IMG/VR virus record: IMGVR_UViG_3300001850_000168
Location: 1 to 25,973 of that record
DNA: 25,973 nucleotides
Source: a virus
Reading direction: 5' to 3' (one strand)
Made by a program: the position numbers and the translations under genes. Shown here piece by piece: positions 15,721 to 25,124 of the stretch; positions within the stretch are counted from its first letter, which is position 1, and every line of letters begins with the position of its first letter. The notes under the pieces were generated by a model. That model made no database searches. It saw only the letters and a list, made by a program, of their open reading frames with translations, and was not told where the DNA came from.

Positions 15721-16191
15721 TTAGAATGTAAATTTCAAGCCCCCAGAAATCGTGTTTCCATTATACATTTCAACACGATCTTGTCCAAATTGACGTTTAA
15801 CTTCTGTTACAAAAGATGTATTCTTTGTAAGAGGATATTCTAAACCTAATCCAGCAAAAAATGCATATCCATCCGGTCTATTTTCATTATCAATAAATGA
15901 TAATCCAGATTTAGTATAAAATTTTACTTTTTCAATTTTGTAAAAATCTTTTTTCGCAGAAATACTAAATCGATATTGATCATTTCGTAATCTGCTAAAG
16001 GATTTATCATAAAAATATTCCAATTCTCCAACAACTTGAACAGGACCAACAGATTGGGATACACTCAAATTCAAAGAAGTTTTATCTTGTGTAAAATCTC
16101 TACCTGTGCCTACACTAATATCAGCAGAATTGACATTCATTGAAATCATAGTTAATGCAATTGCCGACATTTTAGTAATATTATTAAACAT
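15721..16191 (-). CDS. Outer-membrane beta-barrel protein with signal peptide
   Basis: A 156-residue protein. Residues 1-23 form a signal peptide (MFNNITKMSAIALTMISMNV, cleavage likely after NSA). The rest alternates polar and hydrophobic residues in about eight strand-like stretches (TSLNLSVSQ, QVVGELEYFYD, QYRFSISAKKDFY, KVKFYTKSGLSF, YAFFAGLGLEYPL, TSFVTEVKRQFG) and ends with GGLKFTF, the terminal aromatic signature of barrels inserted by BAM. The size fits a small barrel of the OmpX/OmpW/Opa class. In a phage it could alter the host surface, for example by blocking superinfection, or aid lysis; this is inference. A strong AAAGGAG site precedes the ATG, and the tmRNA gene lies directly upstream. 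Confidence 0.8.
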   Translation of the reverse strand: MFNNITKMSAIALTMISMNVNSADISVGTGRDFTQDKTSLNLSVSQSVGPVQVVGELEYFYDKSFSRLRNDQYRFSISAKKDFYKIEKVKFYTKSGLSFIDNENRPDGYAFFAGLGLEYPLTKNTSFVTEVKRQFGQDRVEMYNGNTISGGLKFTF

Positions 16192-16268
16192 ATGTTACTC
16201 CTTTACGTTATTTTTGAAAATAAAGTGCGGGTTGATTCTGTTCCCATGTCCAACCCGCAAAACACGGA

Positions 16269-16310
16269 TTAAGCTGCTAGAGCGTAATCGTAACGAGCAT
16301 CATTAGCTGC
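16269..16310 (-). other. tmRNA tag reading frame (AANDARYDYALAA-stop)
   Basis: Thirteen sense codons and TAA run from the resume codon GCA. The upstream bases fit the usual tmRNA resume context (...AAAC-GCA). The tag starts with the usual A-N-D core after an extra Ala and ends in ALAA, the signal read by ClpXP-type proteases and SspB-like adaptors. The central ARYDY differs from the tags I remember. Confidence 0.88.
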
Positions 16311-16395
16311 GTTTATAGTTTTGCTCTGCTTACGGCAGTCGCCTATCGTGCTGTCTGTTTCGCTACTCCTTGCCCTGTCGAAACCGGTCGCCCCC

Positions 16396-16490
16396 ATCAG
16401 AAGTATTCTTAACCATTTAAGCCGCAAGTGTAAGTTAGTCCCACTTAAGGGTGTCCTTGGCATACGGTGGGAATCGAACCCAAATACTTT
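16396..16490 (-). other. Intervening segment of the permuted tmRNA with a T-arm-like remnant
   Basis: The segment is bracketed by a 7-bp inverted repeat (16401-16407 and 16483-16489) that would extend the acceptor stem and close the segment into a loop before processing. Inside is a second T-arm-like element TGGG-TTCGATT-CCCA (16482-16468) with a following ACCGTATGCCA. No matching 5' tRNA half is found, so it is not a complete tRNA. Confidence 0.6.
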
Positions 16491-16562
16491 TGGTGGAGGC
16501 GGGGGGAATCGAACCCCCGTCCAGAACACATTTTACGTCACTTCATACAGCAATATAATTAT

Positions 16563-16730
16563 TTATTTCTTTAATTCTTCTTTTTTTACTTCTACCTTCT
16601 TTACTTCTACTTTCTTTTCCTCTTTTTTTGCTTCTACCTTCTTTTCATCTTTTTTCGGTACAGGTACATCTGCTGCATAACTAAATGTCACAAAAAAGCC
16701 AAGAATAATACCAGTAATAAATGTTTTCAT
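16563..16730 (-). CDS. Small exported Lys/Glu-rich protein
   Basis: A 55-residue ORF from ATG (16730-16728) with AAGGAG 6 bases upstream. Residues 1-19 form a signal peptide (MKTFITGIILGFFVTFSYA, then AD), so signal peptidase I cleavage would leave a 36-residue mature chain. This chain is almost only K, E and V in repeats (KKVEAKK, KKVEVKKVEVKK). There is no lipobox cysteine. The alternating charge suggests a single helix or a disordered rod in the periplasm. I recognise no family. It lies upstream of the tmRNA and downstream of the nuclease gene; a promoter-like pair at 16853-16881 may drive it. Confidence 0.7.
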   Translation of the reverse strand: MKTFITGIILGFFVTFSYAADVPVPKKDEKKVEAKKEEKKVEVKKVEVKKEELKK

Positions 16731-16743
16731 AATATCTCCTTAA

Positions 16744-17412
16744 TTAAGTTAAAAAATAAAAATTATTAATACACTTGTACAACTCTTTTATATATACTTC
16801 TCTTTTTCTCTCAAAAACCTGTGGTATCTGTTCCTCTGTTGCAATTAATACTATAATATCATCTATTTTTCTGCCTGTCAAATGAAAAAACATTTCAGAA
16901 TATGCGGAACATTGTAGAAAATAATTATTTATATGTTCTTCTTTTTTCTCTTTTAAAGAAGTTTTAAAATCGATAACCGATAATTTACCTTTCCATTCAG
17001 CAATACAATCAACTCTACCTGCAATTTTTAATTTATCACTATAAAGTGCCTGCTCCATACAATAAATATTATCAACATAAGAATCTAAATATTTTCTTAC
17101 TTGTCCAAACAACATCTTATCAAATGGCATCATCATCTTAATTTTCATTTCTGTTAAATTACCTTTAATATAATTTTCACATAATGAATGCATTCTAGTA
17201 CCACGATTTGCTGCCATTCTTGTTATACGATTTGCTTCCTCAATACCAATTCTATCCCGCCATCTCTTTAAAACATCATCTTTAGATGGTAATATTGTTG
17301 TTACAGAAGGATATCGTTCACCTTTTGGTGTTGTATAAAATCTACCTGTTTCAAGTGTTTCTGATTGTAAATCAAAATTTAATTCAGATAATTTTACAAA
17401 ATTAAAACTCAT
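16744..17412 (-). CDS. PD-(D/E)XK exonuclease, Cas4/RecB/MGME1-like
   Basis: A 222-residue protein with the motifs of the RecB-type nuclease superfamily in order: GTRMHSLCENYI (H75, E79), IAGRVDCIAEW (D135), LSVIDFKTS (D148, K150) and LQCSAY (Q167). These would bind metal and cut ssDNA ends. I see no four-cysteine iron-sulfur set as in Cas4, so the MGME1-like single-domain type fits better. An N-terminal FYTTPKGERYPSVTTIL is also typical. Its ATG overlaps the stop of the FmdB-like gene (ATGA). In a T4-like phage it may act in recombination or in breakdown of DNA ends. Confidence 0.85.
   Translation of the reverse strand: MSFNFVKLSELNFDLQSETLETGRFYTTPKGERYPSVTTILPSKDDVLKRWRDRIGIEEANRITRMAANRGTRMHSLCENYIKGNLTEMKIKMMMPFDKMLFGQVRKYLDSYVDNIYCMEQALYSDKLKIAGRVDCIAEWKGKLSVIDFKTSLKEKKEEHINNYFLQCSAYSEMFFHLTGRKIDDIIVLIATEEQIPQVFERKREVYIKELYKCINNFYFLT
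16853..16881 (-). promoter_or_regulatory. Promoter-like sequence inside the nuclease gene
   Basis: TTGACA (16881-16876) and TATTAT (16858-16853) with a 17-base spacer on the minus strand. A start near 16846 would transcribe the Lys/Glu-rich gene and the tmRNA. It is within coding sequence, so chance cannot be excluded. Confidence 0.45.
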
Positions 17413-25050: not shown

Positions 25051-25124
25051 TGGAGCGGGTAACCAGACTTGAACTGGTATCTCTAGCTTGGAAGGCTAGG
25101 GCACAACCCTTATACCATACCCGC
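25051..25124 (-). tRNA. tRNA-Gly (UCC)
   Basis: A complete 74-base cloverleaf with encoded CCA. The acceptor is GCGGGTA/TACCCGC, the anticodon stem CTAGC/GCTAG has loop CTTCCAA (anticodon TCC at 25092-25090), and the T-arm is ACCAG-TTCAAGT-CTGGT. It reads GGA and GGG glycine codons; GGA is common in this AT-rich genome. Confidence 0.95.

Follow-up and report, generated by a model that had tools for sequence, protein, structure and literature searches.

The transcript of a permuted tmRNA gene is cut by tRNA-processing enzymes, and the two pieces then assemble. Sharkady and Williams reportedly described such genes in Betaproteobacteria in 2004, and permuted tmRNA genes have been regarded as a curiosity of evolution whose spacer is simply discarded. 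Phage genes of this kind are on record. PMC9004378 reports a two-piece tmRNA in Melnitz, a T4-like phage of marine Methylophilales, and counts 53 such tmRNAs among public phage genomes, 50 of which are aquatic; the passages on the tmRNA consulted there do not mention what the spacer contains. A tRNA-Ala gene located within one permuted tmRNA intervening sequence was described as unique (PMC11915505). The bacterial Y RNA YrlA is a circularly permuted tRNA mimic (PDB 6CU1; PMC8394870, PMC11472068). Searches of the open-licence literature turned up no description of an ORF or a conserved RNA within the intervening sequence of a phage tmRNA, and none of the spacer microproteins and RNAs described below was found annotated. 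The spacer, and not the tmRNA gene, looks to be the new part of the locus presented here.

The DNA analysed (the window) is a 25,973-base IMG/VR virus record, a metagenome fragment. ARAGORN and Rfam identified a circularly permuted tmRNA gene at 16552-16269 on the minus strand. A sequence-only reading of this DNA had placed a permuted two-piece tmRNA at 16226-16540 without giving a strand, and its range was correct. The covariance-model search that it had suggested, run with cmscan at gathering thresholds, returned scores above the cut-off for two Rfam models: RF04321 (tmRNA_permuted; 141.5 bits, E 3.6e-28, cut-off 47), whose match begins at 16552, and RF01850 (beta_tmRNA; 106.7 bits, E 7.4e-32, cut-off 84). 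ARAGORN reported the permuted tmRNA at 16178-16583 with the tag AANDARYDYALAA. The acceptor piece (16491-16552, minus strand) comes first and consists of a 5' pairing region, the T-arm, CGCCTCC, A73 and CCA, with the acceptor-side (3') tRNA domain, from the T-arm to CCA, delimited by ARAGORN at 16529-16491. It is followed by an intervening segment of exactly 95 nt (16490-16396) and by the coding piece (16395-16269; ARAGORN, RF04321), which includes the GGGGGCG acceptor strand, GTTTCGACAGG, the resume codon GCA and the tag. The coding-side tRNA domain, GGGGGCG...GTTTCGACAGG, occupies 16395-16370. The tag (16310-16269) is intact, ends in ALAA and is followed by a stop codon, and the hairpin that ends the coding piece on its 3' side (GCGGGUUG/CAACCCGC; 16227-16258, minus strand) lies within the region matched by RF01850 and is also part of the predicted fold. 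All seven pairs between the acceptor strands form, G3-U70 among them; the spacer length and the 7-bp acceptor pairing given in the sequence-only reading were both accurate.

A maximum-likelihood tree was built from the mature tmRNA pieces. The Melnitz tmRNA joined the alpha-like sequences (support 99/96), in agreement with PMC9004378, while the window tmRNA fell in a phage clade outside the alphaproteobacterial group. This position, together with the RF01850 score above the cut-off, identifies the window tmRNA as one of the betaproteobacterial type. On the host lineage, to which the tmRNA had been proposed to point, the tree sets the gene apart from the alphaproteobacterial group and gives no exact bacterial sister. 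The locus is like that of Melnitz in being a permuted ssrA gene of a T4-like lytic phage of aquatic bacteria, with the same anatomy and a closing stem at the spacer ends. It differs in its tmRNA, which does not group with the alphaproteobacterial sequences and matches beta_tmRNA instead, and in the content of the spacer, which in Melnitz is an ORF led by a Shine-Dalgarno (SD) sequence and in the window a cloverleaf RNA. With the betaproteobacterial permuted tmRNAs of RF01850 it has in common a score above gathering, the order of the pieces and G3-U70. The window tmRNA gene itself is a further member of the already known phage two-piece kind, aquatic T4-like cases having been published in 2022 (Melnitz; PMC9004378).

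The contig is T4-like, with gp5-, gp53-, tail-tube-, head-closure-, end-protector- and gp32-like genes. The products include a baseplate hub plus lysozyme, a wedge subunit, a tube cap, head closure and DNA end protector proteins, a tail tube, a baseplate hub and a gp32-type single-strand DNA-binding protein. Since tmRNA is a cellular gene family and the contig is a metagenome fragment, host DNA misjoined to phage DNA, or a dead gene acquired by chance, had to be considered. However, an independent contig (L012) is 99.87% identical to the window over 5,171 bases that include the entire tmRNA gene. A permuted tmRNA also lies beside the same exonuclease gene (phrog_298; window 16744-17412, minus strand, upstream of the tmRNA) in more than 30 non-identical IMG/VR relatives (L013-L018 and many of L160-L238), and this synteny reaches relatives whose exonucleases are only 47-60% identical. 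Because of the independent contig and the shared location, misassembly or a phage-host chimera, which the sequence-only reading had raised against itself, is excluded. The acceptor, tag and terminal hairpin are all intact, and the window tmRNA sits in a clade of phage sequences only, which leaves the dead-gene explanation, like the misjoin, extremely improbable.

The 95-base spacer, whose content the earlier reading overlooked, is not inert but a conserved tRNA-shaped RNA element. Comparison of the relatives indicates a cloverleaf RNA with the architecture of a circularly permuted tRNA. All of its parts are on the minus strand. The closing stem, formed by AAGUAUU (16483-16489) and AAUACUU (16401-16407), takes the place of the anticodon stem and covaries across eight sequences. 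It is followed by a T-arm, UGGG-UUCGAUU-CCCA (16468-16482), in which UUCGA is kept in 8/8 relatives and the loop common to the eight sequences is UUCGANN. The central arm, CCG..CAAG-GACA-CCC-loop-GGG-..CUUG-CGG (16422-16467), takes the place of the acceptor arm; its outer pairs covary (CCG/CGG, CG/CG, CA/UG), CAAG/CUUG and CCC/GGG are invariant, and its loop is UUAAGU in the window and GNRA in the other sequences (CCC-GNRA-GGG). A D-arm-like hairpin, CUUA-AAUGGU-UAAG (16408-16421), shows double changes at 4/4 pairs and has GG in the loop in all eight sequences. The cyclic order of closing stem, T-arm, central arm and D-arm corresponds to a tRNA that has been opened at its anticodon.

The case for this fold in the window rests on the relatives, because the window sequence alone is weak evidence. 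Its spacer is no more stable than shuffled sequence (z -0.02), and its minimum-energy fold differs from the cloverleaf (-19.8 vs -14.7 kcal/mol); its second T-arm (4 bp) was present in only 0.1% of shuffles of that spacer. Counted by segment over the eight sequences, 200 of 200 cells pair, with changes on both sides at 12 positions, and none of 2000 reassignments of the 3' strands did as well as the real pairing. A covariance model made without L313 recovered that spacer, which does not have the usual D-arm, with 50 bits (E 1.9e-11). The element was sought over IMG/VR with two DNA patterns, a strict core and a relaxed one. The core pattern matched four contigs, every time within a tmRNA spacer, and the relaxed pattern added three spacers (L454, L457, L460) and two free-standing copies, which brings the element to at least seven distinct phage tmRNA spacers (the window, L451, L452, L454, L457, L460 and L313) and to at least two free-standing phage loci (L456 and L458). 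The copy in L458 (339-426, minus strand) is located in a phage tRNA array, between the tRNA-Leu and tRNA-Tyr genes. A scan of 299 Pseudomonadota genomes, run with no positive control and so of little weight, found the element in none of them.

These results bear on the explanation that this is an ordinary tmRNA of the Melnitz kind whose spacer is meaningless and by chance contains the remains of half a tRNA or a T-arm acquired by copying. T-arms are common sequences that are easily copied, 13 bases of the window spacer are identical to the T-arm of its own tmRNA, the folding z is close to zero, and a genuine tRNA-Ala has been described inside one intervening sequence (PMC11915505). Nonetheless, the core AAGGACACCC...GGGAC.AAC..ACACUUG is not a tRNA sequence and is kept in the spacers of tmRNAs scattered over the tree, the pairs covary, and the element also occurs free-standing. 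A meaningless spacer is unlikely on this evidence. A cyanophage tRNA-Lys fragment was considered as the source of the T-arm and rejected, the match being a single weak one of 24 bases (E 0.2). T4 stable RNAs C and D were likewise rejected as relatives of the element; the best model score in their region was 16.4 bits, on other genes. An ATG frame in the window's own spacer is not preceded by a Shine-Dalgarno sequence, runs into the tag frame and shows no evidence of coding.

The element is not a tRNA in the usual sense, since its arms are in permuted order and its central arm is capped. ARAGORN found no tRNA in the window spacer, a comparison of that spacer with Rfam at relaxed E-values matched the T-arm alone, and the L451 and L458 copies gave no Rfam match up to E 10. 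The secondary structure supported by covariation in eight sequences is tRNA-like, circularly permuted and set on a basal stem. It resembles YrlA in having a basal stem made from the two ends, followed by T-, D- and acceptor-like arms in a circularly permuted order. Unlike YrlA, the element sits inside a tmRNA spacer and has a conserved core sequence of its own; the YrlA model (RF02553) found no match in the window, and no Ro60/Rsr gene was seen among the window proteins examined. The tRNA-Ala case of PMC11915505 is similar in that a second structured RNA lies within a tmRNA intervening sequence, but there it is an ordinary tRNA, from a bin assigned nominally to archaea, and here a conserved non-tRNA element present in several phages.

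The spacers of other phages were compared with those of 41 bacterial permuted tmRNAs (beta and mostly alpha), with family searches in 300 and 249 genomes. Bacterial spacers measured 5-68 nt (n=41), most of them 22-48, compared with the 95 nt and the folded element of the window; in two phage samples taken blind to the spacer, the median was 60-64 and the maximum 210. Long spacers also occur outside phages: a bacterial permuted tmRNA with an alpha_tmRNA match (L434, 1501-1832) has a spacer of more than 100 nt, which may be structured. Among non-redundant phage spacers of at least 40 nt, 92% have a closing stem of at least 7 bp, compared with 15% when the ends were exchanged between phages, and in the precursor this stem continues the acceptor stem. 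Its presence in nearly all phage spacers would suit a cloverleaf that acts in cis only, folding the precursor and drawing its halves to each other, for instance to help RNase P, and that has no function once it is excised. The tRNA elbow is a feature that tRNA-processing enzymes recognise, which points the same way. Yet a closing stem alone is enough in bacteria, with their mostly shorter spacers, and in other phages, and the same element stands free elsewhere, once among tRNA genes. We consider a purely cis-acting element a possibility, although a doubtful one.

Other spacers contain ORFs. In non-redundant phage spacers with a length of 80 nt or more, an ORF was counted when its ATG was at most 20 nt from CCA, a Shine-Dalgarno sequence preceded it and at least 20 codons were open. 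Such SD-led ORFs just after CCA were found in 22 of 87 spacers, against 0.88 +- 0.95 expected from dinucleotide shuffles, and the spacer of the cultured phage Melnitz has one, of 54 aa. Homologous spacer ORFs form more than 10 unrelated families. Within families, pN/pS was mostly 0.1-0.5 with a third-position excess, with exceptions such as the family of L240 with L270, L285 and L311, where it was near 1; these substitution patterns suggest that the spacer ORFs are mostly under purifying selection. In 18 of the 22 ORF-bearing spacers, the Shine-Dalgarno sequence falls within the closing stem, in its 5' strand. A simple hydropathy rule predicted transmembrane peptides for 9 of the 22 ORFs. In six of them the stop codon is the UGA of the terminal UGAU itself, and 11 continue beyond the expected RNase P site, so that processing would leave a nonstop message, a natural substrate of tmRNA. 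Ten spacer proteins compared with PHROGs gave nothing below 1e-3, and two compared with phage isolates gave no match. SD-led ORFs of 28-41 aa, mostly predicted to be transmembrane, were observed in the L268, L337, L240, L286, L316, L278 and L371 spacers, and several of these have the UGA of the terminal UGAU as their stop codon. Soluble microprotein families were also seen (L013/L354, L015/L175, L138/L262/L273, L376/L380 and L360/L378/L386), with pN/pS well below 1 where measurable. Recurring non-coding spacers (L247/L266, L044/L279/L348, L254/L299/L317, L255/L303 and L040/L176/L177) look like further structured RNA families.

The contents of the spacer change between close relatives. L088 and L138 are 98.5% and 92% identical on the two sides of the spacer, but the spacers differ, one being a 67-nt RNA and the other 134 nt with an ORF. 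Because of this swap, and because the element-bearing phages are scattered over the tmRNA tree, the cargo seems to move independently of the tmRNA; exchange could take place by recombination through the conserved flanks.

The best explanation overall, in which we have considerable confidence, is that of a working two-piece tmRNA with the spacer as cargo. During infection, the window gene would provide the T4-like phage with a working tmRNA that acts in trans-translation. The sequence-only reading had suggested for it a possible part in keeping ribosomes active or steering proteolysis while host mRNA decays. A single transcript would be cut by the host tRNA-processing enzymes, with RNase P acting between UGAU and GGGGG and 3' processing after CCA, and the two pieces would remain paired. 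Alanyl-tRNA synthetase would charge the tmRNA thanks to G3-U70, and stalled chains would receive AANDARYDYALAA, the end of which would be a protease signal. The excised 95-nt segment would be the cargo, a putative circularly permuted tRNA mimic with a closing stem for the anticodon stem, a T-arm, a capped arm for the acceptor arm and a D-arm. The closing stem would keep this RNA in one piece, its release would probably result from the cuts that mature the tmRNA, and the mimic may act, for example, on a host enzyme that binds tRNA. Other phages would use this slot for different RNAs or for microprotein ORFs with the ribosome-binding site inside the closing stem. The evidence leans, by a small degree, toward the more general proposal that phages made the intervening segment of permuted tmRNA a general slot, from which maturation frees a functional RNA or a microprotein mRNA, with translation coupled to processing and the overrunning ORFs acting as nonstop messages for the tmRNA itself.

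A different function for the phage tmRNA would be to act against the host, by competing with the host tmRNA or retagging host proteins, instead of rescuing ribosomes. A phage tmRNA devoid of a CDS (DS6A) inhibits the endogenous tmRNA (PMC11915505), and tagging of host proteins was suggested by the Melnitz authors (PMC9004378). The window gene, on the other hand, keeps a resume codon, an intact tag ending in ALAA and a stop codon, as in normal trans-translation, and we judge a role directed at the host to be improbable. If the spacer is an exchangeable cargo site, a cellular RNA-processing pathway would serve to express hidden microproteins and RNAs of viruses, and one of the cargos would be a new family of tRNA mimics. 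The finding bears on why large phages carry tmRNAs.

Other observations concern the surroundings of the gene. By eye, no sigma-70 promoter was seen before the acceptor piece in the window comparable to the good promoter sequences located just before it in L013 (TTGACA...TATACT) and L002 (TTGACA...TATAAA). The sole other RNA gene found in the window is a tRNA-Gly (UCC) at 25051-25124 on the minus strand. Between the exonuclease and the tmRNA, directly upstream of the latter, lies an ORF (16563-16730, minus strand) for a protein of 55 aa that begins like a signal peptide and has a tail of Lys/Glu/Val repeats (KKVEVKKVEVKKEELKK).
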